A stretch of DNA of 64,000 nucleotides from NCBI RefSeq assembly GCF_015191005.1, contig NZ_CP040442.1:1550001-1614000 (forward strand), written 5' to 3'. Positions 1,610-60,025 of this stretch are shown here, piece after piece. The stretch is from Kaistella flava (ex Peng et al. 2021). GTDB lineage: Bacteria; Bacteroidota; Bacteroidia; Flavobacteriales; Weeksellaceae. The translations under genes and the position numbers were made by a program. The first letter of the stretch is position 1. The number at the start of each line of letters is the position of its first letter. The notes beneath the pieces were generated by a model. That model was given only the letters and a program-made list of their open reading frames with translations, was not told the origin of the DNA and did not search any database.

Positions 1610-2478
1610 TTTATTTTATTAACGTATTTTAAATAAATACTTAGCTTTGGCAAATTATATTCGTATCTTAAAGAGTCCAGGTTTTTCATGTCCTCTATTG
1701 GAGATGACCCTAATTTTTTTGTATCAGAGTTAAATTGGAGCTGTGTGCCAAATTTTTGTTTCTTATTTTCACTCGTTAGATCTCTATCTATTAGAAGAGC
1801 TTTATTATTTAAAGAATAGGAGTTTGATTTTAAAACATATTCCAATATTTCTTTTCTAAAATTAATTTCCATATCACTATGTTGAGCAATATAAAAAATA
1901 CTTTTGCTTGCTAAACAATCACAATCATCATCAAGTATTGTATCTAAAGTATGTTTTTTTATTAAAAATTTTACAAATCCCCTGTTTATTGAATCTTGTT
2001 TAATAGTCAAACGACCTATACTATCTAGTTTTTGAGGATCATTATTGTATTTATTAAACAATCTTCTGTACATTTGATCATCTTCATAAATTTTATTCCA
2101 ATTAATTTGGCTCAATTCACTGTTTTTATTGCATTTACTATATTGATTATAAAATTGTATTAGTTCTATGGTTCCTAAATCACATTTATTTATTTTATTA
2201 TAATTTTTTTTTATAAGTTCTTCAGCTAATAAAAGATTATTTTTTTCTTTTGATTTTGTTAGATATTTTAAAATTATAGCTTTTTTAGAATTATTATATA
2301 AATGAAATAATGGAATTAAATTTTTACGGGTATAGTTTGAAATGGTTGCACTATCAGATAGTAAATTCAAACTATCTGCCTTTTGCATTACAGTTACTAA
2401 ATTTAATGGTGTATTACTGGTCTTTATACAAGCAGTAAAAAATAAAAATAAAACAAAATAAATAATATTATTTTTCAT
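1606..2478 (-). CDS. DUF6624-like lipoprotein in graspetide operon
   Basis: 290 residues. The N-terminus has a short hydrophobic stretch ending in FFTAC (Cys17), a lipobox, so it is predicted to be an inner- or outer-membrane lipoprotein. The C-terminal half carries the pattern AQHSD...LIDRDLTSENKKQKFGTQ, which matches DUF6624 proteins (conserved QH, DR and QxxGTQ). Function is unknown. Its position between the ATP-grasp and SPASM genes, with a 4-bp overlap into the latter, suggests a role in export, sensing or immunity for the modified peptide; this is inference. Confidence 0.7.
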   Translation of the reverse strand: MKNNIIYFVLFLFFTACIKTSNTPLNLVTVMQKADSLNLLSDSATISNYTRKNLIPLFHLYNNSKKAIILKYLTKSKEKNNLLLAEELIKKNYNKINKCDLGTIELIQFYNQYSKCNKNSELSQINWNKIYEDDQMYRRLFNKYNNDPQKLDSIGRLTIKQDSINRGFVKFLIKKHTLDTILDDDCDCLASKSIFYIAQHSDMEINFRKEILEYVLKSNSYSLNNKALLIDRDLTSENKKQKFGTQLQFNSDTKKLGSSPIEDMKNLDSLRYEYNLPKLSIYLKYVNKIK

Positions 2479-2480
2479 TA

Positions 2481-2666
2481 TTAACTGATAATTTTAGATA
2501 TAACTATTCTGGAGCTTTCAACAATATAACCTCTCGTTTGATAAAAATCTGAATTAGAATACATCATAGCAATATCACTCAAATTTTTATTTGACATTTT
2601 TTTTTGTATGTTCCAATAGCAAAGAGGTAGTTTTTTATTTTTTAATTTCGTTTCTACTTTTTTCAT
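2481..2666 (-). CDS. Small 61-residue protein of unknown function
   Basis: A short frame starting MKKVETKLKNKK, overlapping the 3' end of the ATP-grasp gene by 32 bp and ending 2 bp before the lipoprotein gene. The tight packing argues that it is translated. It is basic at the N-terminus with one Cys and a Trp, has no GG motif and no signal peptide, and is not recognised. It could be an accessory peptide or an additional modification target. Existence is moderately supported by gene spacing only. Confidence 0.5.
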   Translation of the reverse strand: MKKVETKLKNKKLPLCYWNIQKKMSNKNLSDIAMMYSNSDFYQTRGYIVESSRIVISKIIS

Positions 2667-3627
2667 AATTTTTTAATATAAACAATGACATTTGTTCCTC
2701 TAAATAATAGTTACATGGTTTGGAAACCATTCCAAACTGCCCTACAGGATTTACTTCAAGAAAATAATACTTTTCATCTTTTGAAACTATCATATCTATC
2801 GAGCAAGTTTTCAGATTTAAATCTTTAACAATTTCTCTTAAACTTGATTCTATATTTATTGGTAGTTGATAAGGTACATTTCTATTTCCTTTTTGTCTAT
2901 TGTAATTTCTAAAATCCACCCTAGTTTTATTATCATTTTGAGAAAATATAGCCATAGAATAAAAAATATCATTTAGGTAGAATATTCTAAGCTCAAATTT
3001 TTTTTCAATTTTATTTTGAACTTTGGTAGGAAAAATATAGCCCTCTTTTTTGATTTCACTTACTTCACTTGTATACATCATATAATGAGAATCACTATCA
3101 TAAAATGTTACAGCATCGCTTATTGGCTTTGTAATTAGATTGTTTTCTATTATTAATTTGTTGATAATCTCTATTTTATTAGTTATATATGTGTGAGGAA
3201 TATTTAGACCATGTTTCTCAGCGAGTTTAAGAGTTTTCAACTTATTTATACTTTCACTGTATTTGTTTATCCAAACTGAATTGTCTAAAAACGATTCTAA
3301 AAACCTATATATTGTTCCTAATTCGGATAATAAATGATTTTGTAGAGTTTTATTATTATCAAATTCATTAAAAATTTTAGGTTCAATGTTTATAAAATCT
3401 TCATCAAAACTGCGTCTAAACCAAATAGTATTTACAATTTGGTTATCAATTTTTTGATTATTAAAATTAAATTCAGAATTGGAAATGTCAATATAAAAGT
3501 CTTTATTTAGTAAATCATCACCATTTATTCGAACTATTACTTCATTGTTTTTTTTATGATGATACAACCAATTTAAAACATCATCTGTTGTATTCTCTCC
3601 GTAATTTTTACTAAAAATAATTATCAT
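2635..3627 (-). CDS. gwsG: Grasp-with-spasm system ATP-grasp peptide ligase
   Basis: 330 residues with the outline of an MvdC/MvdD-type ATP-grasp ligase: an N-terminal FSKNYGENTTDDVLNWL segment, a central KPISDAVTF phosphate-binding region, and a C-terminal YYFLEVNPVGQFG motif carrying the metal-binding Glu and Asn. Graspetide ligases of this family activate Asp/Glu side chains with ATP and join them to Thr/Ser or Lys, forming macrocyclic esters or amides. The substrate is presumably the Thr- and Asp-rich peptide encoded 60 bp upstream. It is transcribed from module 2 by read-through of the small hairpin at 3650-3674. Confidence 0.88.
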   Translation of the reverse strand: MIIIFSKNYGENTTDDVLNWLYHHKKNNEVIVRINGDDLLNKDFYIDISNSEFNFNNQKIDNQIVNTIWFRRSFDEDFINIEPKIFNEFDNNKTLQNHLLSELGTIYRFLESFLDNSVWINKYSESINKLKTLKLAEKHGLNIPHTYITNKIEIINKLIIENNLITKPISDAVTFYDSDSHYMMYTSEVSEIKKEGYIFPTKVQNKIEKKFELRIFYLNDIFYSMAIFSQNDNKTRVDFRNYNRQKGNRNVPYQLPINIESSLREIVKDLNLKTCSIDMIVSKDEKYYFLEVNPVGQFGMVSKPCNYYLEEQMSLFILKNYEKSRNEIKK

Positions 3628-5849: not shown

Positions 5850-6689
5850 TTATGTCAATATTTTGTTTTCTAACATCTTCATATTATTATATCTAACCAA
5901 ATAGTCATAAACAAGCATTTCAAACAACCTTTGATTAGAAATAAACATTCTATTAATGTGCATGTGGAAAATACTTGCGAAAAAAGAATCCAAAAAGTTG
6001 AAATCATATCCTATTATTTTTTCTGAGATAAGTCTAATCATTGAAGCATTTTCAAGAATTAAATTTCTAATCTCTGCAAATTCGTCAGAACTAATAAACT
6101 CCTCATATTCTGGTTTGAACTCTAAGAATTTTTTCTTCAACTGGTTATTTAGATTTTTATCTGAATTGAACTCTTTTTTAAAAGCATCATTAGAATTGGT
6201 AAACAATTTTAATTTTCCTGCTTCGGATATTTTAAACTCCGAAAGTATCAGTTCAATATAAAACAGTGAAACCATAATCTTCTCTTCATCATCATAATCT
6301 AAAAAATTCAGAACCAACTCACTGCTTTTGAAAAATAATTCCTCTGCAAATCCTATTGTATCTATACCATATCGTTCTAATTCTCTGCTATAAGTATCTA
6401 TGACAATATTTGATATTTCTCCGGAATCTATAAATTCTTTTAGTTTTGAATTTATTAAATCCAAAACTATATGATAATTGACTTTATCAAATAATCGAAC
6501 TCGAAATCTTAAATGTGGTTTGGTATCATTATACCGAATAAAGAACCATTTTTCAATTAGATTTTGTTTTTTTAAGTCGCCAATTAAAGGAGTTATAGCT
6601 TCCTGTAAAATAATGTCGGAAGTTTTTACTCCACAATATATTTTCAAATAGATCCATTCGCTTCCTGGAGAGAATTTTCTGGTTTTCAT
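5850..6689 (-). CDS. LanB elimination-domain-like protein (thiopeptide-type bacteriocin biosynthesis)
   Basis: 279 residues, starting MKTRKFSPGSEWIYLKIYCG. The opening WIYLKIY...ILQEAITPLI and the WFFIRYNDTKPHLRFRVRL segment (residues ~50-72) are the hallmarks of the C-terminal elimination domain of class I dehydratases, here as a separate protein. In split systems it removes glutamate from glutamylated Ser/Thr to give dehydroalanine and dehydrobutyrine. Its start overlaps the end of the partner gene by 4 bp, so the two are coupled. Confidence 0.85.
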   Translation of the reverse strand: MKTRKFSPGSEWIYLKIYCGVKTSDIILQEAITPLIGDLKKQNLIEKWFFIRYNDTKPHLRFRVRLFDKVNYHIVLDLINSKLKEFIDSGEISNIVIDTYSRELERYGIDTIGFAEELFFKSSELVLNFLDYDDEEKIMVSLFYIELILSEFKISEAGKLKLFTNSNDAFKKEFNSDKNLNNQLKKKFLEFKPEYEEFISSDEFAEIRNLILENASMIRLISEKIIGYDFNFLDSFFASIFHMHINRMFISNQRLFEMLVYDYLVRYNNMKMLENKILT

Positions 6690-8875
6690 TTTAGATTTTC
6701 ATAGAGTGGAAATATGAATTGACTCGTGTAATTTTGCTTTTTATTACAGAGGAATTCCTCAATAAAAACTTCTTTTTCGTTTTTGATTGATGCAAAAAAA
6801 AGGTTGACCAATTCCCAATTTTTAAAGTTTATTAGCAAAGTATTATCTGCCTTTACCCATTGAATCCATTGTGGAATTTGTCTTATTCCTCTCCAATTTT
6901 CGATTTCAATCATTATTTGCTCTTGATTCAAGCGTAAAAAACGTTTTATCTCTTCTGTAGAAATTTTCCATCGGGCTTTCGATAGAATAATATTGCCATA
7001 TTCTACTCTTGGTAAGAATTGATAAACTTTACCTAAATCACCCCAATCAAAAGACAGTCCCGATCGAATGTTTTGAGAGCTTAAATCACATAAAAAATGG
7101 TAAACAGGCAACGAATTGGCAGAATAATTATGAGCATTAGTAAGATAAGGTACAATCTCTTTATCGTGTGATTTTGACCGAAGAAACAACCTATCGTTTT
7201 TTATAGAAAGTAATAAATCATCAACAGGAATTTGATTTTCTACAGGCAAAAGAGATTTTGCCAAATAGGGAATCTCATAGTTTCTCATTTGTGGTCGCTT
7301 TAGAATATTTCCTATTCTTGCTTCTGGAAGATGAATGATTTCCGCTAAAATTTGTTCGGTTTTTAAATCGTTTTCTTTTTTGGAAATTTCTTTAACTAAA
7401 TCTCTAATTTTTGATATTTCCGAGTCAAATCTTGTTAATAATCTACCTGCATTTGCACTTCCAAAGTTCAGATACAATTTTTGAGAATTATCATCTGAAA
7501 CGATTTCAGTCATAAAATATAAAGTGTCGGACAAATCATTCCATTCTTCTTCAAATTCCGGAAAATCTTCATCTGAAAGTTGTATGGAAAACTTATTTTC
7601 AGCAATTGCAGCCTGTATTTTTTGATTTAAAATAATCTGAACAGGGTTCAAACTAATGTCCAATTTCCTGTTTTTTGAAGAAAACGGGATTATTAAATCT
7701 TCTATGTAAGGATGAATGCCCGCAGATTGAACATTTTGCCTGTAACCAATTCCAGTTTCGGTATCCAACGCAAAAGCTAATGGAATTTCTTCATTTTCAA
7801 ACCTTTCGTAAAATGCAACTTTGAATTTTTCGAGTAGTGAATTTTGGGAATTGTTTAAAGTAATTTTATTCAGAAATGAAATACCTTTCTTCATTTCTTT
7901 TTTCCAATGATAAGATAATCCAATTTGATTGTCAAAGTAAAGGTCAGTTTGAAAAAGATATTTTTTTTCATATTCAATGTTCAAAGTCTGAATACTTTTT
8001 TCGATTTCGTCATAAGAAGAAACCGAATTTTCAAAGCAATTGTCAAGTTTTGAAAGTTGGTTTTTGATGTCAAGCAAAATATTTTTTTCTTTCTCTGCTC
8101 CTATACGGTTCAAAATAAAAATGATTGAATCCAAAAAATCCACTCCGGAAATATTTGGTTCCATTTCACTTACAATTACCCGATTTTCAATCAATTCCTT
8201 AATATATTCGAAAGATTCTTCCGAAGTTATATTATCACTATTTAAAATTGCAATCATTTCAGGAACTGTCTTTCCTTCATTTGAATATTTCAATATTTTT
8301 TCTAATTCCTGAGAAAGAGGAGCGGAAGAAATAACATAATCTCTTTTCATTCCTTTGGATTCGTGCTCAATATATCGAATTTTATTACCAACCTTATAGA
8401 TGCTGTTGTTTGGAAAAAACAAAAGTTTGTTTTTGATATCCTGAATTGAAAGTAAGTATTGTGAGAGTGCTACTGAAAAATACATATCAAATTTGGTTTC
8501 TCTCAATCTTTTCCAATCTGAATCTTTTTCAGGAAATGAATGCTCTTTATCAAAATATCCAATTCCAACACTGGAGAACAAACCAAATGGAGTGCAACGT
8601 GTACTCATTCTGTTAAAATATTTCAGAAGAGTATTTTTTAATCTATATCTTGAACTTTCATTAAAATCAATATTGCTGTCTATTAACTTTTCCATTTCCA
8701 AATACAAATCGGAAGAAGCCAAATAGATTGATTCCTTGAATGAAGTTCTTCTAAAGATTTCTTGTAATTTTTCATCATTTGTGTTTTCAGAAAAAATATT
8801 TTGAAATTCTTTATAAGATAATAGTGGTACTCTGACAACAAAATTGTCAAAAAAAGTATAAGGGAAACGTGGCAT
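6686..8875 (-). CDS. Lantibiotic dehydratase, glutamylation domain (split LanB N-part)
   Basis: 729 residues beginning PRFPYTFFDNFVVRVPLLSY, with CTPFGLFSSVGIG near residue 95 and R..TKFDMYFS near 135, all characteristic of the Lant_dehydr_N domain. Established role: uses glutamyl-tRNA(Glu) to glutamylate Ser/Thr of a leader-bound precursor. The usual C-terminal elimination domain is encoded separately just downstream. It lies 3 bp after the prolyl oligopeptidase gene, in one operon with precursor 1. Confidence 0.9.
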   Translation of the reverse strand: MPRFPYTFFDNFVVRVPLLSYKEFQNIFSENTNDEKLQEIFRRTSFKESIYLASSDLYLEMEKLIDSNIDFNESSRYRLKNTLLKYFNRMSTRCTPFGLFSSVGIGYFDKEHSFPEKDSDWKRLRETKFDMYFSVALSQYLLSIQDIKNKLLFFPNNSIYKVGNKIRYIEHESKGMKRDYVISSAPLSQELEKILKYSNEGKTVPEMIAILNSDNITSEESFEYIKELIENRVIVSEMEPNISGVDFLDSIIFILNRIGAEKEKNILLDIKNQLSKLDNCFENSVSSYDEIEKSIQTLNIEYEKKYLFQTDLYFDNQIGLSYHWKKEMKKGISFLNKITLNNSQNSLLEKFKVAFYERFENEEIPLAFALDTETGIGYRQNVQSAGIHPYIEDLIIPFSSKNRKLDISLNPVQIILNQKIQAAIAENKFSIQLSDEDFPEFEEEWNDLSDTLYFMTEIVSDDNSQKLYLNFGSANAGRLLTRFDSEISKIRDLVKEISKKENDLKTEQILAEIIHLPEARIGNILKRPQMRNYEIPYLAKSLLPVENQIPVDDLLLSIKNDRLFLRSKSHDKEIVPYLTNAHNYSANSLPVYHFLCDLSSQNIRSGLSFDWGDLGKVYQFLPRVEYGNIILSKARWKISTEEIKRFLRLNQEQIMIEIENWRGIRQIPQWIQWVKADNTLLINFKNWELVNLFFASIKNEKEVFIEEFLCNKKQNYTSQFIFPLYENLK

Positions 8876-8878
8876 TGG

Positions 8879-11071
8879 CTAATCTTTTGGTTGGTAATCA
8901 GGATGTCCAAGTTGCCAAAAAGCGAATGCAAAAAGATCTCCTATATTTGCATATCTCTGTACTGCGGAATTACTAGTAGCATGGCCACCCTCATAATCAA
9001 TTTTTAATAATACAGGATTAACTGAGGTATTATTTGATAATAACTTTGCAGCAAATTTCACCGAAATCCAGGGAGTAACGATAGGGTCGTTAATGCCTGC
9101 AGTAATTAAAGTCGCCGGATATTTTCCACCTTTCTCTATATGATGATAGGCATCCATTTCTTTTAAAGCCATAAATCCTTCCAAATCATTTACCGAACCA
9201 TATTCCTGAACTGTGGTATTTCCAGTTCCTCCTGAAAATTCTTTTCTTAATGTATTTAGACTTCCAGATTCTATCATTATTGCAGCAAATAAATCAGGTC
9301 TTTCTGTCATTGCTCTGCCCATTAAAATTCCACCGGCACTTCCTCCTAAAAGCGCTATTTTTTTTGGTGATGTATAGTGCTGTGCAATTAAAAATTCCGT
9401 ACAAGCAATTAAATCTTTCCAAGAATTGGGCTTTTTCAATTTTTGTCCGTCAATATGCCACTGTTCTCCTTTTTCTCCGCCACCTCTTACGTGCGGAACT
9501 ACAATCATACCTCCTTGGTTAACCCATAATAAATAACTCAAAGAAAAATAGGGATAATAGGATTCTGCAAAAGCACCATAACCATTAATAAGTACAGGAG
9601 TATTACCATCTTTTCTAATGTTTTTATTATGAATTAAAGATAATGGGACTTCTACGCCATCATAAGATTTTATAGTAATTTCCTCAACAACAACATCTTT
9701 AAATTCTGGGTATTCAATAGTTGGAGTAAGATTTTCAGAAATAAACGAATTGGTTTGTAAGTCATATTTAAATCGTTGTTCTTCATTTGCCCAACCTGAA
9801 CAGCTAATCCAAATATCTGAAAAATCTTTCCCTTTTGCTTCTAAATAAATATTTCCTGCTACAAAAGGAGTTTTTATATTAGTTTCTTTTCCATCTTTGT
9901 ATAAATATAGTTTGGCTTCTACGCCATTTTTAGTTCTTGTAAAGTAAACCCCATCTTTGGTTATTTTGTAACTTGTTATTACTTCATCCTTATTTTCGGG
10001 AACCAATACTTCTGGATTTCTGAAATTGGGATTGTTCGTACTGGTTTTACACAATTTATAATTCAAAGAATTATATCCGGATAAAAAGTAAATTTCATCA
10101 TTTGCTAAGCTTATGTTTTGTACCTTATCTTCTTTAGTATATAATGATTTCCAGTTTTTTTTGCCTTCTAAAAGATCTTTCTTGCTAATTATGAATGTGT
10201 TTCTAAAGTCTTCAGAATCCACTAAAATCCCTATATAGTATTTGTCATCAGAATTGAATGACAAAACAGCAGGAAACGCCGTTTTTTCTATTCTAAGATT
10301 GGGATTGTTCGGATTAGATAATACTACATTTAATTTTTGAGGATCTTGCCCTATTTTGTATAAAACGGACTGTGTATTTTTTCCATATTCTTTAGAACTG
10401 CTGTCAATGGTGGGATATGAAATATAGAAAAAGCCAGAATTGTCTTCCAGCCATCTGATTCCTCCAATATTCGAAGGATCTGTATTTGTGATAATTTCAG
10501 GATGAATATATTTTTTTCCTACGTCCATTACAATGACTTCGGAAAATTCTTTACCATTTTCTGTTAAGGAAATGGCTAATTTGCTTCCATCCCAACTCGG
10601 ACTCAATAGATTGATTACAAACCGATGTTTTAATTTTTCCGTTGTACTTTTAATTGAAGAGCTAAAATTTGCTGGATCATAAAGTATTTCTTCTTTTCCA
10701 TTAAATCCATTTCTGTAATATACTTTTGCCGACTTCTCACCGGCATTTGTTTTAAGATAAAAATATTTATCATTGCTTGTAATGTTTAAATCCGAAACGG
10801 AAAAACCTTGTCTTTTATCAAATTCCAATCTTTTGTTCAGATAAAAATTTTTATTTGGGATTTTATTGATTACAGAAATAGCATAATCTGTCTGAGATTT
10901 CATCCATTTAATGGTGGATAAATCTTTCAAGTTTTCTAAATTTCTGTATTCATCAACAATTTTATTGCCAAAATATTCATCTATAACTGGTAAAGATGGA
11001 GCAGGATTGCCTTTTTGAGCAACCATATATTTAGCTAAAAGACAAGCAATGATAAATATTATTTTCTGCAT
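8879..11071 (-). CDS. Secreted prolyl oligopeptidase (S9A)
   Basis: 730 residues, full POP length. A signal peptide ends near VAQ (residues 1-19). The N-terminal and propeller parts (ITSNDKYFYLKTNAGEKSA..., about 80-430) are followed by the peptidase domain with GYGAF, the nucleophile GGSAGG, and GGHATS for the catalytic His. POPs cleave after proline in short peptides, and POP-type enzymes remove leaders in some lanthipeptide systems. It starts 6 bp after precursor 1, so dedicated processing of exported peptide is the likely job. The precursor 1 core contains only one Pro. Confidence 0.88.
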   Translation of the reverse strand: MQKIIFIIACLLAKYMVAQKGNPAPSLPVIDEYFGNKIVDEYRNLENLKDLSTIKWMKSQTDYAISVINKIPNKNFYLNKRLEFDKRQGFSVSDLNITSNDKYFYLKTNAGEKSAKVYYRNGFNGKEEILYDPANFSSSIKSTTEKLKHRFVINLLSPSWDGSKLAISLTENGKEFSEVIVMDVGKKYIHPEIITNTDPSNIGGIRWLEDNSGFFYISYPTIDSSSKEYGKNTQSVLYKIGQDPQKLNVVLSNPNNPNLRIEKTAFPAVLSFNSDDKYYIGILVDSEDFRNTFIISKKDLLEGKKNWKSLYTKEDKVQNISLANDEIYFLSGYNSLNYKLCKTSTNNPNFRNPEVLVPENKDEVITSYKITKDGVYFTRTKNGVEAKLYLYKDGKETNIKTPFVAGNIYLEAKGKDFSDIWISCSGWANEEQRFKYDLQTNSFISENLTPTIEYPEFKDVVVEEITIKSYDGVEVPLSLIHNKNIRKDGNTPVLINGYGAFAESYYPYFSLSYLLWVNQGGMIVVPHVRGGGEKGEQWHIDGQKLKKPNSWKDLIACTEFLIAQHYTSPKKIALLGGSAGGILMGRAMTERPDLFAAIMIESGSLNTLRKEFSGGTGNTTVQEYGSVNDLEGFMALKEMDAYHHIEKGGKYPATLITAGINDPIVTPWISVKFAAKLLSNNTSVNPVLLKIDYEGGHATSNSAVQRYANIGDLFAFAFWQLGHPDYQPKD

Positions 11072-11077
11072 GAAAAA

Positions 11078-11242
11078 TTATATTCTAACCGTAGTATCTG
11101 TTGCTTTACTAGCATTTTCAGGAAACATACAACCTGTTTTTTCCAAATCATCATCACCACCCTTTATCGATTTCAAATTAATGATTTTTGAAATTTTCAC
11201 TTTGTTTAATGAAATTTTTTTTACACTTTTTTGCTTTTTCAT
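11078..11242 (-). CDS. Class I lanthipeptide precursor 1
   Basis: 54 residues. The leader MKKQKSVKKISLNKVKISKI contains the LSLNK..I..I pattern common in Bacteroidetes class I lanthipeptides (pinensin type). GG occurs at 28-29, and the core DDDLEKTGCMFPENASKATD... has one Cys and six Ser/Thr, so at most one lanthionine ring plus dehydrated residues. It is the first gene of the POP-LanB operon, 6 bp upstream of the peptidase gene. Confidence 0.82.
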   Translation of the reverse strand: MKKQKSVKKISLNKVKISKIINLKSIKGGDDDLEKTGCMFPENASKATDTTVRI

Positions 11243-11471: not shown

Positions 11472-13178
11472 ATGAAAAATATGAGATATTTTTTCCTTTT
11501 GTTCATTGGATATTGCAATCTACTATATTCCCAAAATAGTTTATTTGAAAACTTGAATAAATATTCCTACGAAGAATTAGAAAATAAATTTTATAGTTAT
11601 AAGGATAATAATGAAAACGAAGAATCTCGAATAATTGCAGAGTTTTATATTAAAAAAGCAAAGAAAGAAAATAAAGATAAAAAGTATATAGCCGAAGGAT
11701 ACGTACTGAATCATTACAATAAAGACTTACCGGTCGCATTAAAATATATAGATAGTTTAGAGATAATCAGTAAAAATTTACAAGATGAAATATATCCAGC
11801 TCGAATTTATTTATTTAAAGGCATGCTATATTATAACGCTGATAATCTAAAGTTAGCTCTAGAAAATTATGTTACTGCATTAAAATATGCAAAAGAAAAA
11901 AAGAACACACGACAAATTGCAATTGCAGATTTACAAATTGCATATTTGAATGGTTATATCGGGAAACCACAGGAAGCCGCTAAGGTTTTGAAGTACTATT
12001 ATGACAATTCAGGTTCTTTAACAAATGAAGACATACAACACATCCAAATAAATTTAGCAAGTTCTTATTTGGATATTGATGAATTTGGAAAAGCAGAAAA
12101 ATTAATAAAAAATGGTCTTCATTATACGCTAAAAAATAATGAGTATGTAAGATATAATAGATATTTATCCTTATCGGGACAGTATTATTTATTAACGAAG
12201 CAATATCCTAAATCAATTGAAATATTAGAAAAGACCAAAGCCTATTTTTTAAAAAATAATATTGATTTGGATGCTAATTATGCAATGTTGTATTTAGGAC
12301 AATCTTATGCTGAATCAAAAAACAAAGACAAAGCTGTAGAAAATTACATCAAAATTGACTCTATTGTTCAAAAAACAAATAATACTTTTCCGGAACTTCG
12401 GGATGTTTATAGTTATTTAATTGATTATTATAAAGAGAAAAAGGACAAAGAAAAACAACTTTATTATATTGATAGATTTCTTAAAATCAATTCCATTTTA
12501 GACACCCAGTTCAGATATATTTCTCGTGAGCTTCCGAAAAAATATGATATGCCAAAACTTTTATCTGAAAAAGAAGAGATTATAAAAGAATTAAAAAACA
12601 AAAAATATTTATCTTATACTACTATAGGAATATTGTGTTTGCTATTGATATTCATTATGATTCTGTTCGTTAAGGCAAAAAGAAAAGAAAATGAATATAA
12701 AGAAATTGCGCGAGACCTCATAAAGTCTGTCAGCGAGAAAAGTCATTCTACTGAAAATAAAACTGAAAATGAAGTCATTGCTAATCAAGAAATTTTTGAT
12801 TCTGAAAAAAATAAATTGCCAGATGAAATAGTAGAACATATTTTAAAGGAATTAAAAATGTTTGAGGAAAAAGAACAATATTTAAAAACTGGTATTGTAG
12901 TAGACAATCTTGCTAAAAAATTTAAAACTAATTCTTCCTACCTATCTAAGGTAGTAAACATATACAAAGAAAAAAGTTTTCCCAATTATTTAAACGATTT
13001 GCGTATTGATTATGCTTTAATCAGATTAGTAAACGATAAAAAGTTACGTTCTTATAATTTTTCAGTTATAGCCACTGAATTTGGCTATAATAATGAACAA
13101 GCATTTGCAAATGCGTTCAAAAAAAGAACAGGAACAACTCTTTCTACATACTTGAAAGAGATTGAAAGCCAGCCCTAA
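11472..13178 (+). CDS. Membrane-anchored TPR / AraC-type transcriptional regulator
   Basis: 568 residues: signal-like hydrophobic start (MRYFFLLFIGYCNLLYSQ), a long TPR-type helical region (about 40-350, with repeats such as ALKYAKEKKN and AVENYIKI), one transmembrane helix (about 380-398), a coiled linker, and a C-terminal AraC HTH (about 460-568, VDNLAKKFKTNSSYLSK and FGYNNEQAFANAFKKRTG). If the signal holds, the TPR sensor faces the periplasm and the HTH the cytoplasm, a one-component design common in Flavobacteriia. It sits in the middle of four RiPP gene sets sharing one operator, so it is the leading candidate regulator. Confidence 0.85.
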   Translation: MKNMRYFFLLFIGYCNLLYSQNSLFENLNKYSYEELENKFYSYKDNNENEESRIIAEFYIKKAKKENKDKKYIAEGYVLNHYNKDLPVALKYIDSLEIISKNLQDEIYPARIYLFKGMLYYNADNLKLALENYVTALKYAKEKKNTRQIAIADLQIAYLNGYIGKPQEAAKVLKYYYDNSGSLTNEDIQHIQINLASSYLDIDEFGKAEKLIKNGLHYTLKNNEYVRYNRYLSLSGQYYLLTKQYPKSIEILEKTKAYFLKNNIDLDANYAMLYLGQSYAESKNKDKAVENYIKIDSIVQKTNNTFPELRDVYSYLIDYYKEKKDKEKQLYYIDRFLKINSILDTQFRYISRELPKKYDMPKLLSEKEEIIKELKNKKYLSYTTIGILCLLLIFIMILFVKAKRKENEYKEIARDLIKSVSEKSHSTENKTENEVIANQEIFDSEKNKLPDEIVEHILKELKMFEEKEQYLKTGIVVDNLAKKFKTNSSYLSKVVNIYKEKSFPNYLNDLRIDYALIRLVNDKKLRSYNFSVIATEFGYNNEQAFANAFKKRTGTTLSTYLKEIESQP

Positions 13179-13397: not shown

Positions 13398-13547
13398 ATG
13401 AGCACAGAAAAATTGACTCAAGATGAAAAGTTTGAACTTCTAAATGAATTTCAAATGGAAGAATTGGAACAAAGATTTGAAATGACTTCAGCTGCGGCTG
13501 TTGAAGATGGCGGAGAAATAACTGTTGGTGTTAGCTGGACATTTTAA
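13398..13547 (+). CDS. Candidate precursor peptide of a new prenylated-RiPP system
   Basis: 49 residues: an acidic leader (MSTEKLTQDEKFELLNEFQM..., rich in Glu/Gln), TSAAAVEDGG at 30-39, then ten residues EITVGVSWTF. The only Trp is residue 47, third from the end. There is no Cys. It lies behind a strong promoter match and is followed by a hairpin terminator, then three co-directional genes for a prenyltransferase-cyclase fusion, an RRE-M50 peptidase and an exported protein. If cut after GG the product would be a decapeptide with Trp at position 8, as in Bacillus ComX168 (ADPITRQWGD). That role is inference. Confidence 0.75.
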   Translation: MSTEKLTQDEKFELLNEFQMEELEQRFEMTSAAAVEDGGEITVGVSWTF

Positions 13548-13564
13548 TAGATTCCAAAACTTAG

Positions 13565-13599
13565 GATTCTGGTAAGTTTACTTATCAGAATCTTTTTTT
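13565..13599 (+). terminator. Strong hairpin terminator/attenuator after the precursor
   Basis: GATTCTGGTAAG pairs with CTTATCAGAATC (12 bp, one G-U) around a TTTA loop, followed by seven T. It lies 18 bp past the precursor stop and 15 bp before the next start, so downstream genes depend on read-through, as is usual for RiPP precursors. Confidence 0.9.
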
Positions 13600-13613
13600 A
13601 ATTAAATTAAAGT

Positions 13614-14759
13614 ATGCCTAATTTATTTATATTTTTATTTTTTTTCTGTATAACTAATATTTATGCTCAGAAAAAATATAAAACAATTGACAGTGAGACA
13701 AAAGAAGTCATAAGTAATGTTACAATAACTACAAATGACAGACAGATTTATTACACTAACACGGATGGAGAGGTTTTGATTCCTGAACATGTAACAACCT
13801 TTACAGTCACTTCTGCATTATACGAAAGCTATCTCGTAAATAGTAACCAGAAAGAGACAATTATAGAGTTGAATCCTAAAGTAAAAGAAATTGCAGAGGT
13901 AACTATATCAAAAAAGTATTCTTTATACCAAATTACACAAAGTGTTATGGAGAATTATGATAAACTCTATTATAGTGAACCTGTAATCTATAATGCTAAA
14001 CTGATGCAAAAGACATATTTTGATAACAAAATCAATCATCTTTTTATCGCTGATATTGATATATGGGAAAAAGACGGAAGTTATAAGTTAGGACTTAGCG
14101 GAGCAATGGCTAACCCAAAGAAATTTTTACAGATTTCATTTGATAAAATTAAATATTTCAGGACAAAAATGGTAGATAAATCATTGGGAAATGATGTGCA
14201 ATTCCGTACATTCAATAGGTTGCTGTTTTTTAATTTTAATTTGGCATTTGCATTCAAATATACTAATGAAAACAGCTATACTTCAACCTATGAAAAAATT
14301 TCAAATGATGAACTTTTAATAAAATTTAAGTCTGGATACTTAGAAAAACAAAAGGCAGCTATTACGGGGGAGCTTATTTATAACACCCAGACTAAGGCTA
14401 TTACTTATTTGAAATGGACTGCGGATCAAAATTTAGAAGGAAATACTAAATCGAGTTCTAAAGTACACAGTTCCCAGTTTTCATCAGAGTTTCAGCTTTC
14501 TCGCTATCAAGATAAGTACATCCCGAATGTACTTCAATATGCTGGTGGAGGGTATATTACAGATGAAAAAAATATAAAAATGCATACCTATTCTGCCGAA
14601 GGAAGTGTCCAGTTTGGCAAACTTACTCCATCCACCGACAAAGGTTTAGACAATGCTTTAGATTTGACTAAACCCCTAACATCTAATATTCAGAGTAATG
14701 TTAGTAATTTGTCTGAGGTATTATTATCCAAAGAAGAACAAAAGTTTATAGATGAGTAG
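13614..14759 (+). CDS. Exported protein with carboxypeptidase-regulatory-like domain
   Basis: 381 residues with a signal peptide ending in IYAQ (residues 1-19). The next ~75 residues (TIDSETKEVISNVTITTNDR..., ending in a VKEIAEVTI-type strand) form a CarboxypepD_reg-like beta domain as found before TonB plugs. The remainder is beta-rich and not recognised. It starts 15 bp after the terminator and overlaps the prenyltransferase gene by 8 bp. Envelope location suggests export, delivery or reception of the peptide; no direct evidence. Confidence 0.65.
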   Translation: MPNLFIFLFFFCITNIYAQKKYKTIDSETKEVISNVTITTNDRQIYYTNTDGEVLIPEHVTTFTVTSALYESYLVNSNQKETIIELNPKVKEIAEVTISKKYSLYQITQSVMENYDKLYYSEPVIYNAKLMQKTYFDNKINHLFIADIDIWEKDGSYKLGLSGAMANPKKFLQISFDKIKYFRTKMVDKSLGNDVQFRTFNRLLFFNFNLAFAFKYTNENSYTSTYEKISNDELLIKFKSGYLEKQKAAITGELIYNTQTKAITYLKWTADQNLEGNTKSSSKVHSSQFSSEFQLSRYQDKYIPNVLQYAGGGYITDEKNIKMHTYSAEGSVQFGKLTPSTDKGLDNALDLTKPLTSNIQSNVSNLSEVLLSKEEQKFIDE

Positions 14760-16605
14760 TCCACAAAAAAGTCCTGACTTTTACCAGAATTACGCATCAC
14801 AATTTTATAGCTATTACAAAGAGATCTCTAAGAAGACAATCGAAGAACTGGATATAGCAGGATTTGCGATATATCAATCAGCGATGAGATTAGATAAAAT
14901 TATCGATGATAAGGATACAACAGAAATTCTCTCCGCTTTAGCTTTACAAGAAGATGCAATAAAGATTTTAACATCTATTTTTAATAAAGATAGTAAGTTT
15001 TGGAATCTATGGAATCTTAGAAAAACAGAATTTCATGATGCTATATCTCTGGAAAAATCTCTTTGGGAAAATCCAACTTTTGAAAGATATCAAGATGTTG
15101 CTGATAAAAAGTCTGCTTTTGGAAAAGTGGCTATTGACTGCTTATTTTTACTTTCGGAAAGTTCCAATAAAGAAATTTATAATTTACTGCTTGAATCACA
15201 CAGGTATTTTTCAATAGGTTTTCAACTGCATGATGATGTTAAAGATTTTAGTGAAGATTTCAATAAGAAACAATTTAATTGGGCAGTTTATGAATTATCC
15301 AAAATTGTTGACTACTCAAAATATAGCAATGATGTAGTATTGCTTAATAAAGTGCTCTATGTAGAAGGTGTTGGAGTAAATATCCTGAATAAGTCCATAA
15401 CATATTTTGAGAAAGCTAAAGAAATTATTAATGAATTATCAGAGGCAAGTTTATGGTGTAATACTATTGATCGGTGTAAACACTCCATTCAACTGTATAA
15501 AAATGTTACAGAAGGATATATAAAAACGATTCAGGAAAAAGCTAAAATCAGAAAAAAGATTACGGATGGAGAGTTCTTGGATTTAAAGGATATTACCAAT
15601 CAAGTCTTTTCAAAAGGATTAAATGTAATAAAGTCTGATTATTTTCATAATTACATAGACTTAAAGCACATTATGTACTTAGGGAGTGTAGATGATTTTG
15701 AAAATGATACAGATGTTCATTCGTCAGACACCTTTCAGAGAGCTTTACTGAACGATTGTTTGTTGGAGATTACGCAACACTTTAATATTGATACTGGAGA
15801 TTTCTTTGAGAAAGAAAATCAATATTTAGTTGACAGGCAAAATAATGATAGTGTTGGTGCATGGTCTTATTTTCCGACCGTTCGGGAGATTGCATCAGAT
15901 ATTGACGATCTGGGGCAGATTATGCAACAATTTATGAAGACTAATCACTATGAATTGGTGGATAGATATTGTCTGAAAGCCATTGATACAGCCATATCCG
16001 ATAGAACAAATGACAATGGAGGTATAGAAACCTGGATTATCCCTAAAGAGAACCTTACTGAAAAGCAACAAAAACAAGATTGGTGCAATTCCACCAAATG
16101 GGGGAAAGGTCCTGATGTAGAAGTCGTAGCCAATTTTGTATATGCTCTTACATTATTTAATGCTGAAAAATATAAACATACTATAGAGAGAGCTATTGAT
16201 TATATTCTTTCCGAGCAAAAGGAAAGTGGTTTTTGGGAGAGTAGGTGGTATTATGGAAAGTTTTACGGAACCTATGTTTGCCTAAGATTGCTTTGCCAGT
16301 TTCCTGATCAATATCAGTCGGTTAAGCAAAGAATAAAAAAATTCTTGAAAGATTCTCAGAATGAAGATGGAAGTTTTGATGAAAAACAATATAATATTCT
16401 ATCAACCAGTTTTGCAATTTTCTGTTTAAATCTACTTCAATCTCCTGAATTGAACGAGATAAAACAGAAAGCCCAAAAATACTTATCAGGAAATCAACTT
16501 CATGATGGGAGTTGGAAGGCAGAAATACTTATCAAACCAAAAGCCAGCGAACCTTACAGCAGCAAAACACTTACAACGATTTACGCTTTAAGAGCTTTAT
16601 TATGA
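14752..16605 (+). CDS. Polyprenyl-synthase-like / class II terpene-cyclase-like fusion
   Basis: 617 residues in two parts. Residues 1-310: isoprenyl diphosphate synthase fold with a first Asp-rich motif RLDKIIDDKD (D48xxxD52) and a clear second motif GFQLHDDVKD (D161-D165), both metal/diphosphate-binding. Residues ~330-617: alpha/alpha-barrel cyclase-like, with SDIDDLG (a DxDD motif) and three QW-type repeats QKESGFW, QNEDGSF and QLHDGSW. Known parallels: ComQ is a polyprenyl-synthase-like enzyme that prenylates Trp of ComX; DxDD/QW proteins protonate and cyclise isoprenoids. Inference: prenylation, possibly cyclisation, of the 49-residue precursor. A free terpene product is the alternative. 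It overlaps both neighbours. Confidence 0.8.
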   Translation: MSSPQKSPDFYQNYASQFYSYYKEISKKTIEELDIAGFAIYQSAMRLDKIIDDKDTTEILSALALQEDAIKILTSIFNKDSKFWNLWNLRKTEFHDAISLEKSLWENPTFERYQDVADKKSAFGKVAIDCLFLLSESSNKEIYNLLLESHRYFSIGFQLHDDVKDFSEDFNKKQFNWAVYELSKIVDYSKYSNDVVLLNKVLYVEGVGVNILNKSITYFEKAKEIINELSEASLWCNTIDRCKHSIQLYKNVTEGYIKTIQEKAKIRKKITDGEFLDLKDITNQVFSKGLNVIKSDYFHNYIDLKHIMYLGSVDDFENDTDVHSSDTFQRALLNDCLLEITQHFNIDTGDFFEKENQYLVDRQNNDSVGAWSYFPTVREIASDIDDLGQIMQQFMKTNHYELVDRYCLKAIDTAISDRTNDNGGIETWIIPKENLTEKQQKQDWCNSTKWGKGPDVEVVANFVYALTLFNAEKYKHTIERAIDYILSEQKESGFWESRWYYGKFYGTYVCLRLLCQFPDQYQSVKQRIKKFLKDSQNEDGSFDEKQYNILSTSFAIFCLNLLQSPELNEIKQKAQKYLSGNQLHDGSWKAEILIKPKASEPYSSKTLTTIYALRALL

Positions 16606-17804
16606 TGGATGAAAACGTTTTGTACAAATTATCATCAGATATTGAGTTTTCTAAATTCAGTGAGAAAGAATATTTGTTATACAATCAAAAGCTTCATACA
16701 TATACAAAAATTAGCCAGAAATATTACGATTTATTAGGTTTAGCAGATGGAAAAAGGACTTTGATAGCAATTCGTGAGGAGTTTCAAGAAAGACACAATA
16801 TATTGTTGTCTGATAATCAAATTGTTGCGCTTTTTAATCGTCTCAAAAAACAGGGTGTTTTTGGGTATGATGACTCAGTAAAACAGCGGGTAAAAATTCC
16901 GAACTATATAAAATTTGGGTTTATTTTTCTTAAATCTAATATGGTTTCCAAAATAGTGCCCTTTTTGAGCTTTCTCCTCAGGAAAAAGATATACATTCCA
17001 TTGATGATTTTCGGCATTATTGTATTTTGTCTTAATCTTTACTCCAATTATTACCAATATAGAGAGTTAAATATTGTGAAGATTTTCCCTTATTTCGTGG
17101 TATTAATCTTTGTAAGCATTATTTTTCATGAATTAGGTCATGCTACGGCAGCACATTATTATAAAGCCAAACATGGAGGCATTGGTTTTGGATTTTACTT
17201 ATACTTCTTGCCTGTTTTTTTTGCTGATGTTACCGATATATGGAGATTAGAGAGATGGAAGCGAATTATAGTAAATAGTGCAGGGGTTTATTTTGAAGTT
17301 ATTTTTTGTTTAATTTTATCAATTATAGGCTTTTTTACAAAGAATCATGTTTTACAAATCTTAGGCTTAGTAATTTCGGGAAAGGCTCTTTATAATCTAT
17401 TGCCTTTTTTGCGAGCCGATGGGTACTGGATATTATCTGATCTATTCAATAAGCCAAATCTTAATTTTCACTCATTTAATAATTTGAAAATAATGGTTAC
17501 TTCCTTGTTAAAAGGAGTACGGCTTAAATTTGATAAAGTTGATTATTTTATTGGGTTCTACGGATTGTTCAATATATCTTTAATTGGTTTTTTTTTCTAT
17601 TATCAGATTGTTTTAAACGGAAAATCGATAATTTATTTTCCCAAAACAATACAAGGTATCCTCACTTCACTTGCTGATAATCAATCTTCCATGAGTTTCA
17701 GGGAACTAACCAAGTGTGTATCGATATTGGTATTCTATATAATTTTTATCAAAATTTTTACAGAATTGGCTAAAAAAGCTTTTAAATCTATCCGAAAGAA
17801 ATAA
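16602..17804 (+). CDS. M50 membrane metallopeptidase with N-terminal PqqD-like RRE
   Basis: 400 residues from the ATG at 16602, which overlaps the cyclase stop by 4 bp; an in-frame ATG 90 bp earlier would only re-read the cyclase gene. Residues ~1-95 look like a PqqD-type winged helix (YLLYNQKLHTYTKISQKYYDLLGL...), the RiPP leader-recognition fold. Then come several transmembrane helices, with FHELGH (zinc site, His176-His180) and LRADGY (Asp273) as the M50 active-site pair. Such proteins cleave peptides in or at the membrane. It probably recognises the leader, cuts and perhaps helps release the product; no ABC exporter is present. Confidence 0.85.
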   Translation: MMDENVLYKLSSDIEFSKFSEKEYLLYNQKLHTYTKISQKYYDLLGLADGKRTLIAIREEFQERHNILLSDNQIVALFNRLKKQGVFGYDDSVKQRVKIPNYIKFGFIFLKSNMVSKIVPFLSFLLRKKIYIPLMIFGIIVFCLNLYSNYYQYRELNIVKIFPYFVVLIFVSIIFHELGHATAAHYYKAKHGGIGFGFYLYFLPVFFADVTDIWRLERWKRIIVNSAGVYFEVIFCLILSIIGFFTKNHVLQILGLVISGKALYNLLPFLRADGYWILSDLFNKPNLNFHSFNNLKIMVTSLLKGVRLKFDKVDYFIGFYGLFNISLIGFFFYYQIVLNGKSIIYFPKTIQGILTSLADNQSSMSFRELTKCVSILVFYIIFIKIFTELAKKAFKSIRKK

Positions 17805-20433: not shown

Positions 20434-21264
20434 TTATAATTTTATAGGTTGTGAATGAAAACTTTTCAAATTCAGAAAGAACCCCCTGTTTTTGGTCATT
20501 CCGTTGCGAAACAAGTTCCAAAGCAAAGAACATCCCATCTGTGCCAATGACGAATTAATAAACAAATCCTGTTTTTCCAATGCTTCTGCCAAACTACAAC
20601 TTGGCGTGTCGTCTTGTTCTTCAGATTGTTTTAAAATTTCTCCAAATTCATCGGTAACAAAAGGCAAATTTGCCACCGTTTCAAATTTCTCCGAATTAGA
20701 TTGTTGAATATTACCAATTGTAGATAATAAAACCTGTCCTGTGTGTTGGCTATTCCCAAAATCTAACCAATAACGTGGACGATTAGAATACGCTTTCCTA
20801 TTATTCAACATTTTTAAAATATCTGCAATCTCAAACCTTGCTTTTACGCTGTCCACACAAGAAATATAAATACTTGCTCCTGCATTTTCGGGCAATTTAC
20901 CTAAGCAGTCTTTTTCAAATTTCACCGTTTCTGCTTTCCAATTTGTCCCCGAAAATCGGTTGGCTCTGTTGATTAATGCAACGGATTTGTACAATCCAAT
21001 TTCACATTCTGCAAAACGCTGTCTTCCTAAATTGGCATTGGTAACTATATCATCATCCCAAAGGCGAATTTGCAATCCTGTGTGTCCCAATTCAATTAAA
21101 CTGTGGTTCGTTTCCATTAAAGCGGTTAAAACTTTTGAACCAGTGCCACCTGCACCGATTAGGTTTACTAAAATCGGATTGGTAGGATTAATTAAATCGC
21201 TGTCTGTAAAATGTACTTTGGTTCGACTTTGCTCACCCAAAGTTGTTCTTTCGTTTTCCATCAC
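20434..21264 (-). CDS. PRTRC system ThiF-family protein
   Basis: 276 residues. The E1-like nucleotide site is GAGGTGSK (about residues 37-44), with LWDDDIVTNANLGRQRF as the conserved D...N..RQ motif. It is the last gene of a compact minus-strand cassette with PRTRC proteins B, C and E and an SSB, and overlaps protein B by 4 bp. PRTRC (ParB-related, ThiF-related cassette) loci are carried by plasmids and integrative elements; the reaction is unknown. Confidence 0.85.
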   Translation of the reverse strand: MMENERTTLGEQSRTKVHFTDSDLINPTNPILVNLIGAGGTGSKVLTALMETNHSLIELGHTGLQIRLWDDDIVTNANLGRQRFAECEIGLYKSVALINRANRFSGTNWKAETVKFEKDCLGKLPENAGASIYISCVDSVKARFEIADILKMLNNRKAYSNRPRYWLDFGNSQHTGQVLLSTIGNIQQSNSEKFETVANLPFVTDEFGEILKQSEEQDDTPSCSLAEALEKQDLFINSSLAQMGCSLLWNLFRNGMTKNRGFFLNLKSFHSQPIKL

Positions 21265-21983
21265 AATAAATTTTCAAGTGTTTTGCTATTCGGTTTCAAT
21301 ACCTCTCTCGGGAAGGCTTTGTCTGTACCAATTAGCTCTTTCCAAATGGTTACACAATTCCCTTTTATCGGATTGTAGTTTCCCAATAAATGGCTGAAAT
21401 AGCTGTTGAAAAAATAGTTTTCCCAAGCGTGTATAAATTCCTCCACGGATGCCGAATTTTGAATATCAATAGTTACCGTTCCCATACATACATTGCCGTT
21501 TTCATACACATTGAAAAATGGTGCATAATGCAAAAGCGTTTTTTCTGTTGGTCTTCTATCGCTTGCCAAAGCAAAGACTGAAAGACTGTTTTTATTGGCA
21601 AACCAAAGCATTGGCGGTACTTGCGCTTTTTCGTTCGGAATGACTAAACCATTTACAAAATACAGCTGTCTTTGCTGTGCTTTGGTGAACCAAAGTACCG
21701 TGCCTTTTTCGCTCGGATTGATATGCAGAATATTGGTCGGTAAAATTCCCCTTGGCTTTAAAAAGGCTTTGCTCTTTTCTTCATCGGTTTGTAATGACTT
21801 TGCCAATACATTGGCTTCCTTTACAGTCAAGGGGTGTGCATTAATGGGATTTCCATTTTTGTCCATATCAAAATGCTCCACATACATATCGGTATTTATT
21901 CCTTTGGTTTCATAGAAAACCAAAGCAGATTTTGGATAATATAATGTTCCGAAATTCTCGGTAATGTCGTTTAAATTGTTCAT
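21261..21983 (-). CDS. PRTRC system protein B
   Basis: 240 residues beginning MNNLNDITENFGTLYYPKSALVFYETK. The sequence pattern (LPTNILHINPSEKGTVLWFT, MLWFANKNSLSVFAL, PFFNVYENGNVCMGTV) fits PRTRC protein B. It overlaps both neighbours by 4 bp, so it belongs to one operon. Function unknown; the family travels with the ThiF protein. Confidence 0.8.
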   Translation of the reverse strand: MNNLNDITENFGTLYYPKSALVFYETKGINTDMYVEHFDMDKNGNPINAHPLTVKEANVLAKSLQTDEEKSKAFLKPRGILPTNILHINPSEKGTVLWFTKAQQRQLYFVNGLVIPNEKAQVPPMLWFANKNSLSVFALASDRRPTEKTLLHYAPFFNVYENGNVCMGTVTIDIQNSASVEEFIHAWENYFFNSYFSHLLGNYNPIKGNCVTIWKELIGTDKAFPREVLKPNSKTLENLL

Positions 21984-23158
21984 TTTACTGTTGTTTTATA
22001 TTCATTTAATAAACCGCATAAATCGTTCAATATAGGGAACAAACGGTTCTCAAAATCAAGGTTGGTTGCGGTTATTTCGCTTCCGTCAAAGCATTTGCTA
22101 ATGGTAGGTTCTGCCATTGCTCCATACTCATTAAATTCATTATTAATGCTATCCGAAAGACTTTCATATAACCAACCTTTGGTATCTGCCACAAATGAAA
22201 TATACTTTTCCATTCCAATGGTTTCATTGTCGTAATCATCATTATCGGGGTCTTGTTCGGAAATGGGGGCATTTTTAAAAATACTTGTTGTCCGATATTC
22301 CATAAAAAGTTCAAAAACTTTACAAGCTAACTGCCAACATTCCTGGTCAAATTCATCAAGGCTTTTAAAGTTGTTTAAACGCTGTTTAAATAGTTGTAAA
22401 TTGATACGATTGAATAGTTTCTGTTCTATCTTATCGCCAATTTGTTCGGCTTGCCTTAACTCACTTTTGTAGCTTTCTGTTTCGTCCATTTCATCATCCT
22501 GTTCCACCCAATCGGTCATCATTTCATACATCAAATACAAATAGCTATTTTCTTGCCTGTAATACGGAATATCGGCAATGTGATACAGATAACTGCAAAC
22601 CGAAACCAATAATTGAGCGGTCTTTTTGCGCTTCGGATTATTAAGCATTTTAAAGATGGGAATGATGGGAATATAATACAAGGTCGTTCTTGTATCATAC
22701 CGTTCTTCAATTACTAAAAATGTTTTCTTATTGTCCTTTACCAATCGTAAACTATCCCAATTTAAATGGGTGCGTTCTAATTTGGTTTCTATATCCCACA
22801 TCGCCAAAGCAATATTGTAAGGATAGCCGTGAATCTGTGTCTGCATCGGTTCAATGCCGTAATGCTCGGTAAGTTTGGAAAGGGATTGATAAAAATCCCT
22901 CTCCGTTTTTACTATTTCTTTATAAGCCTGTACGGATTGTTCCGTTTTTAGTTTAGGCAGAAAGGTGGACTTTAGAAAACCATTGGCAACATCGCTATTG
23001 GTACGGCTTTCTGCTTGTCTTTCTGCACTTCGTTTGCATCTTTTGGTCTTTGCATCCATTGTGTGAACTCGTTTAACTGTCGGTGCAATTGCCGTTGTCG
23101 TTTCTGTTCTGGTAGGCTGATAATTCCCGATATGATTTTGCGTTGCATAATTCATCAT
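21980..23158 (-). CDS. PRTRC-cassette hypothetical protein (392 residues)
   Basis: 392 residues, charged, with no signal peptide or membrane segment. A long helical middle contains an acidic DWVEQDDEMDETES stretch. It occupies the place where a PRTRC protein F-like gene might sit, but I do not recognise a family motif. It overlaps protein B by 4 bp and follows protein C by 13 bp, so it is part of the cassette. Confidence 0.65.
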   Translation of the reverse strand: MMNYATQNHIGNYQPTRTETTTAIAPTVKRVHTMDAKTKRCKRSAERQAESRTNSDVANGFLKSTFLPKLKTEQSVQAYKEIVKTERDFYQSLSKLTEHYGIEPMQTQIHGYPYNIALAMWDIETKLERTHLNWDSLRLVKDNKKTFLVIEERYDTRTTLYYIPIIPIFKMLNNPKRKKTAQLLVSVCSYLYHIADIPYYRQENSYLYLMYEMMTDWVEQDDEMDETESYKSELRQAEQIGDKIEQKLFNRINLQLFKQRLNNFKSLDEFDQECWQLACKVFELFMEYRTTSIFKNAPISEQDPDNDDYDNETIGMEKYISFVADTKGWLYESLSDSINNEFNEYGAMAEPTISKCFDGSEITATNLDFENRLFPILNDLCGLLNEYKTTVK

Positions 23159-59879: not shown

Positions 59880-59916
59880 TTTGTGTGACTTTAAAGATTT
59901 TAAAATTAACTTTACC

Positions 59917-60025
59917 AAAACCTTATCACAAGATATTCAGTTTATGAACTAGCTCGTGATAAGGTTTTCTCTGAGTTTCCAGTGACCTATTTCAACCTGT
60001 TCAACAGGTCACTGAATAGGTCACT
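59917..60025. promoter_or_regulatory. Inverted repeats between integrase and tRNA (probable attachment/arm region)
   Basis: AAAACCTTATCAC (59917-59929) with GTGATAAGGTTTT (59956-59968), then CAGTGACCT (59980-59988) with AGGTCACTG (60006-60014) and a further AGGTCACT at 60018. Clustered inverted and direct sites next to an integrase gene suit core and arm binding; the first may also be a terminator. Confidence 0.5.

Follow-up and report, generated by a model that had tools for sequence, protein, structure and literature searches.

The window, a 64,000-nucleotide stretch of DNA (positions 1,550,001 to 1,614,000 of contig NZ_CP040442.1), comes from the 3.7 Mb, single-contig genome of Kaistella flava. 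It contains a plus-strand operon of four genes, which encode a short precursor peptide, an exported protein, a fusion enzyme with a polyprenyl synthase-like P domain and a terpene cyclase-like C domain, and an M50 peptidase. This operon probably makes a terpenoid ribosomally synthesised and post-translationally modified peptide (RiPP) of the ChrPC type. Its features are listed in Table 1. All four genes are open, and their starts and stops are confirmed at the listed positions, in agreement with an initial annotation of this DNA. The fusion gene shares its first 8 bases (14752-14759) with the gene for the exported protein and its last 4 (16602-16605) with the M50 gene, in line with the overlaps of 4-8 bp that this annotation gave for the last three genes.

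Table 1. Features of the operon and of the gene just upstream (window positions; aa, amino acids)
Feature	Position	Strand	Remark
TPR + HTH_18 (AraC-type) regulator, predicted	11472..13178	+	just upstream of the operon
Precursor, 49 aa	13398..13547	+	one Trp, at predicted core position 18
14-bp hairpin and T-run	13563..13599	+	between precursor and enzyme genes
Exported protein, 381 aa	13614..14759	+	signal-like N-terminus by eye
Fusion enzyme, 617 aa	14752..16605	+	P domain ~4-250, C domain ~280-617
M50 site-2-type peptidase, 400 aa	16602..17804	+	HExGH motif

The AlphaFold model of the fusion enzyme has a predicted local distance difference test (pLDDT) score of 92.8. When this model is compared with known structures, its first half matches geranylgeranyl diphosphate (GGPP) synthases and its second half matches MstE-type cyclases, which bears out the fusion of a polyprenyl synthase with a terpene cyclase proposed initially. 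A fungal copalyl diphosphate synthase (PvCPS), which combines class II cyclase and alpha prenyltransferase domains, is also among the matches. The Pfam family SQHop_cyclase_C is detected at residues 369-590 with an E-value of 1.3e-15, and polyprenyl_synt is detected at 6e-5, under the family cut-off. The motif residues of the P domain are D48/D52, Q158 and D161-D162-D165-D169. The C domain keeps the acid motif of the cyclases as DIDD at 383-386, including D385. The closest named relatives of the enzyme are from Epilithonimonas and Chryseobacterium (63-67% identity, five loci). The two strong polyprenyl synthetase matches elsewhere in the genome are presumably ordinary synthases. Carriage of the fusion enzyme on plasmids was considered and rejected: a tblastn search of PLSDB returns three records only, which align over 25-31% of its length with 29-32% identity.

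The M50 protein matches Peptidase_M50 (9.8e-9) and, at residues 16-308, the daptide_HExxH model NF041824 with an E-value of 1.6e-31 and a score of 109.8 bits, which falls short of the cut-off at 300; it also matches the epipeptide family at 3.2e-20, again below the cut-off. The daptide model is matched by all ten M50 members aligned, and the HExGH motif is common to all of them. A search of the window genome for a second M50 peptidase of this family gives only a weak 216-base match with stops. The precursor has a leader of 29 residues, which ends in FQMEELEQRFEM, and a predicted core of 20 residues, TSAAAVEDGGEITVGVSWTF, with a single Trp at position 18. The core is predicted by analogy to start after QRFEM, because the daptide M50 peptidase, which depends on a RiPP recognition element (RRE), removes a leader ending in the motif ELExMEAP (PMC10036551, the cut place being taken from the residue numbering given there). 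This motif resembles ELExRxEM in place and wording, and an M50 intramembrane peptidase is common to the window, the daptides (MpaP) and the epipeptides (EpeP). Daptide precursors are described as having an invariant C-terminal Thr, whereas the window precursor ends in WTF and thus in Phe.

Relatives of the fusion enzyme are found in 16 of the 320 genomes sampled from the family. Thirteen of them are open and fused, the window's own included, two are broken (G082 and G237) and one is cyclase-less (G113). In the sample from the order, 6 of 395 genomes match; G000, G043, G237 and G004 are met again from the family, and a fused enzyme (G363) and a cyclase-less one (G608) are added. In the sample from the phylum, 12 of 395 genomes match a profile of nine fused enzymes. 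The match spans both domains in G000, G043, G363, G721, G899, G685, G975, G701 and G650, the last with a stop; it covers the cyclase part only in G681 and G877, and G839 is cyclase-less. A search among relatives of G721 gives 4 matches in 116 genomes and adds G1008. In the protein database, at least 247 proteins match the fusion enzyme at E-values up to 1e-10, the best 120 of 247 being listed.

Sixteen fused loci were searched for precursors, with near-copies of L004 (L005-L008, L010-L015 and L034-L036) set aside and cyclase-only matches (L040, L062 and L064) left out. At 15 of the 16 loci, short open reading frames (ORFs) with a common leader lie no more than about 5 kb from the enzyme gene; none is found at L029. 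Trp follows the leader in all 25 precursors of these 15 loci, at position 2 or 3 in 19 of them. The precursors of the window clade and those ending in CW (L031, L032 and L041) depart from the position-3 rule and have Trp near the C-terminus. Tandem precursors occur in L027 (six) and L030 (four). The M50 gene accompanies the fusion gene at 14 of the 16 loci, adjoining it at 10 and one gene away at 4 (L030, L056, L057 and L066); the L060 copy is divided between two frames, and none is found on the short stretches of L029 and L061. These results support the proposed RiPP system in which Trp serves as acceptor and an M50 peptidase as partner. The expectation of a conserved C-terminal Trp beside the fused enzyme holds for the window clade, but in the family at large Trp often lies elsewhere in the core.

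The window clade consists of six precursors (P0185, P0193, P0199, P0212, P0223 and P0224), which have a common leader and end in WTF or WTIF. All six keep the C-terminal Trp, and none has Trp3. Trp3 and a C-terminal Trp occur together in L004, which is the closest relative whose locus is complete, and also in L028. When the protein database is searched with a profile of the precursors, 119 proteins are obtained at E-values up to 10, and 118 of them have the leader motif. Of the 87 whose leader does not end in RKEF, 82 bear exactly one Trp each and five bear none; three of these five belong to the Tyr3, Cys-rich type met at L063. At a Trp content of 1 to 1.5%, 19 to 26 of the 87 would be expected to bear Trp. 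Trp is absent from all 3614 leader residues of the 118 precursors. The contrast between leader and core in Trp is plain; since the rows are mutually related, the profile stems from mostly Trp-bearing sequences and the precursors may or may not adjoin an enzyme, it is not expressed as a probability.

The accessory genes and precursors of the fused loci vary. Radical S-adenosylmethionine (SAM) enzymes are added at L030, L031, L056 and L058. That of L030 (6578-12178) adjoins four precursors, in each of which the only Trp, at core position 3, is followed by long Gly-rich repeats. The loci with CW-ending precursors, L031 (6466-14516), L032 and L041, have an extra radical SAM enzyme, recognised by eye in the last two, and a gene that by eye resembles P450. 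The L004-type cluster is 99.8-99.98% identical between Epilithonimonas, Chryseobacterium and other genomes (L004-L007 and L034-L036); for most pairs the alignment runs over 5.6-8.7 kb, and for L008 it is fragmented. It has likely been transferred horizontally in recent times, because it is near-identical across genera but its flank in L036 drops to 77.7% identity. Two near-identical copies of its fusion gene are broken (L008 8232-11098 and L036 7634-9555), with a transposase-like gene in one and a frame break in the other.

The initial annotation regarded such a system as undescribed. This view is overtaken by a 2026 review (PMC13290415), which groups ComQ, the P domain of ChrPC and PalQ as peptide prenyltransferases resembling trans-isoprenyl diphosphate synthases (trans-IDS). 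As described there, the P domain of ChrPC modifies an internal Trp with C10-C20 donors and its C domain cyclises the group, whereas NctPC, whose P domain has a different fold, attaches to Trp a C20 group that is cyclised by a C domain resembling MstE; ChrPC and NctPC are credited to Hubrich et al., Chem 2024. "Chr" presumably stands for Chryseobacterium. The window operon is therefore, by the account of this review, of a kind already described in 2024, and the fused enzyme is not new. The window resembles ChrPC, as the review describes it, in the fusion of a trans-IDS-like P domain with a cyclase and, by prediction, in a Trp acceptor and ring closure, and it combines a fusion of trans-IDS-fold P and MstE-like C domains with an adjacent precursor that offers Trp18 as the candidate acceptor. 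MstE itself (Scytonema) differs in that it is a stand-alone enzyme with a small-molecule substrate.

The operon probably encodes a ChrPC-type pathway in which Trp is prenylated, the chain is cyclised and the peptide is released by the M50 peptidase. The P domain would bind a prenyl diphosphate (perhaps one of C15 or C20) and pass its chain on to the indole of core Trp18. The C domain, as an MstE-like class II cyclase, would presumably next protonate the attached chain via D385 and close rings. The M50 peptidase would recognise the leader and cut near its end, and a peptide of 20 residues or shorter would be released, perhaps during export. Since the acid motif of the cyclase is kept, the attached group is more likely to end as a cyclised terpenoid than as a linear prenyl chain. 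The survey places the published kind of fused maturase in a broad, naturally varied family marked by a common leader, an M50 peptidase as a recurring partner, tandem arrays and horizontally moved copies, and this family offers many ready substrates for ring-bearing lipopeptides.

Several points weigh against this assignment. In the enzyme, the first Asp motif of the P domain is degenerate (DxxxD). With a second profile (63 sequences), a weak stretch of 2.0 bits sets the DVDD of squalene-hopene cyclase on D455-V-E457 and not on DIDD, and in a MAFFT alignment the DAD/DYD of L030, L031, L032 and L041 lies one column off DIDD. In the precursor, the Trp2-3 that is present in 19 of the 25 fused-locus precursors is missing, and the sole Trp lies in the C-terminal WTF, where L060 has SYTF with its Trp at position 3 instead; the aromatic residue of WTF may be conserved for another reason. 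The peptidase belongs to the M50 family as initially proposed, but the RRE that was to let it recognise the leader is seen weakly: no PqqD-type Pfam family is detected in any of the ten M50 members, and the stretch before the M50 domain matches the PqqC/D chain 5sxy at an E-value of 0.67. The precursor profile is built mostly from Trp-bearing sequences and may favour Trp-bearing matches, and the database precursors are known as sequences, their adjacency to an enzyme not being established. The operon is likened to ChrPC as the review describes it.

In a second explanation, Trp receives its prenyl group from the P domain, the C domain has no catalytic role and serves as a scaffold or for binding, and a short pheromone-like peptide of linear ComX type is cut out after Gly-Gly (GG). 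The resemblance of the P domain fold and the Trp acceptor to ComQ and PalQ (PMC10853753 and PMC13290415) speaks for it. ComQ/ComX is like the window in that a trans-IDS-like enzyme prenylates Trp of a short ribosomal peptide (PMC10853753). It differs in that this account describes no cyclase domain in ComQ, whereas the window enzyme has a C domain with its acid motif, and in that ComQ is described as lacking the second Asp-rich motif (SARM; PMC10853753), whereas the window enzyme has DDxxD. PalQ/PalX of Paenibacillus alvei shares the trans-IDS-like fold, and its C-terminal Trp acceptor resembles the CW-ending precursors of L031; as described in PMC10853753, it has a leader of the nitrile hydratase leader peptide (NHLP) type and a three-gene cluster without cyclase or M50 peptidase.

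The GG motif is the other point of likeness, and the initial annotation had derived from it a cut that leaves a peptide of the length of ComX168, which has ten residues with Trp at position 8. A ten-residue stretch after GG presupposes a cut at GG, and it is found in two of the six window-clade precursors (P0185 and P0199). GG lies nine residues from the C-terminus in P0212 and is missing in the other three, being DG in the 96% identical P0193 and absent from P0223 and P0224. It lies six residues from the end in L004 and L028, and is absent from five of the six L027 precursors, the sixth having it directly after the leader. GG therefore recurs before the C-terminal aromatic stretch, in the window precursor as in P0199, P0212, L004 and L028, but neither its presence nor the length that follows is fixed. 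No fixed rule of GG and length is found in the window clade, and of Trp and GG, both expected to be invariant, Trp is conserved and GG is not. A cut at GG may still take place in the window precursor, but a fixed, ComX-like length is excluded, and the daptide precedent favours a cut at the leader motif. These variable lengths, together with the kept DxDD motif and D385, make the linear, ComX-type product unlikely; calling the system ComX-like omits the cyclase, whose acid motif is kept.

It is quite improbable that the product of the fusion enzyme is a free terpene able to diffuse, with the small ORF encoding a peptide that is unrelated or has a regulatory function. Pairs of domains of the PvCPS type also serve free terpenes, but 15 of the 16 fused loci have precursors with the common leader and Trp close to the enzyme gene, an M50 protein related to RiPP peptidases is present at 14 of 16, and precursors stand in tandem in L027 and L030. 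Drift of the window copy, in which an ancestral Trp3 acceptor has been lost and the enzyme acts on another residue or poorly, would account for the single C-terminal Trp of the window beside the two Trp of L004, but it is hardly credible with all four window genes open, and the pattern looks like a feature of the clade rather than decay, because all six precursors of the clade retain the C-terminal Trp, with Trp3 in none, and L028 is double like L004.

Beside the ChrPC-type fusions stands a branch of cyclase-less P domains, with members in the Chryseobacterium family, in an Ignavibacteria-like lineage and, in a single genome (G608), in a further family of the order. At all 18 loci examined, with the broken locus L103 left out, these P domains have the same M50 peptidase, adjoining or, at L063, one gene away; the M50 gene of L083 is split. 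Precursors are found at 16 of the 18 loci, at 14 by script (22 precursors) and at two by eye (L042 and L081); none is found at L090 and L091. The leaders end in E[KQ]LExRKEF, in EKFEERKEF in one case, and in DDLERRLEL at L063. Tyr is present at core position 3 in all 22 precursors found by script, and 6 of them, from five loci, also have a later Trp (at position 10 in L082 and at the C-terminus in L086-L089). The precursors of L086-L089 combine Tyr3 with a GGGW end. In the protein database, Tyr3 is present in 30 of 31 RKEF-type precursors, the exception being a 29-residue piece, and Trp in 2. The position that is mostly Trp in the fused systems is thus Tyr in the cyclase-less systems. The Gln before the second Asp motif was considered as a mark of Trp specificity and rejected, because it is also present in cyclase-less enzymes with Tyr precursors.

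In an IQ-TREE tree of the P domains, two changes between the fused and cyclase-less states are needed, and a single change is obtained in none of 200 bootstrap trees. FastTree places L063 beside the fused L058/L059 with a support of 0.88. The approximately unbiased (AU) test, with L087-L090 left out and four database proteins added, does not reject a single clade of cyclase-less enzymes (p 0.195). The switch may therefore have happened once, and two independent origins of the cyclase-less state are not claimed. According to PMC13290415, all characterised trans-IDS-like members target Trp. It is tentatively suggested that the family comprises two linked kinds, fusions with Trp precursors and cyclase-less enzymes with Tyr3 precursors. 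If the acceptor does follow the enzyme, the cyclase-less enzymes would be the first Tyr-prenylating trans-IDS-like members, with ring closure tied to the indole. Since Trp is replaced by Tyr where the cyclase is absent, the choice of acceptor is testable with natural enzyme-precursor pairs. In the literature searched, no description was found of the shared-leader/M50 family as a whole or of the cyclase-less Tyr branch, some of which Hubrich et al. 2024 may include.

The 14-bp hairpin 3' of the window precursor gene (13563-13594) has a folding energy of -16.4 kcal/mol and a z score of -3.97, none of 200 shuffles equals it, and a T-run adjoins, as expected from the terminator-like element initially placed here. 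It is likely a partial terminator between the precursor and enzyme genes, which would allow excess production of the precursor. The stretches 3' of the L004 and L028 precursors fold better than 200 of 200 of their own shuffles. The gap between two tandem L027 precursors, a different kind of place from that of the window hairpin, does not outdo all 200 of its shuffles. The TPR + HTH_18 protein is likely the regulator of the operon; relatives of it lie near the clusters of L031 (33% over 582 residues) and L027 (HTH part, 37% over 119 residues). The exported partner is variable among loci. The first 110 residues of the window protein, aligned with three relatives as the hhalign query, match the CarboxypepD_reg-like partners of other loci with a probability of 96.7% and an E-value of 3.1e-10.

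Three RiPP-like systems, the operon being one of them, lie within a span of about 17 kb in the window. A grasp-with-spasm system on the minus strand (509-3627) has a SPASM maturase (TIGR04193, 1.6e-96) and an ATP-grasp maturase (TIGR04192, 1.9e-79). A class I lanthipeptide-like set, also on the minus strand (5850-11242), has Lant_dehydr_N and Lant_dehydr_C proteins and an S9 peptidase, a 52% identical relative of which lies beside the L031 cluster; its 54-residue ORF (11078-11242, minus strand) weakly matches a lanthipeptide leader (E 0.029). ThiF and Prok-E2_D proteins are encoded at 20434-23158, an IS30-like transposase, identified by eye, at 51070-52050, and a tyrosine recombinase at 58641-59918, and these genes suggest mobile DNA around the RiPP island.

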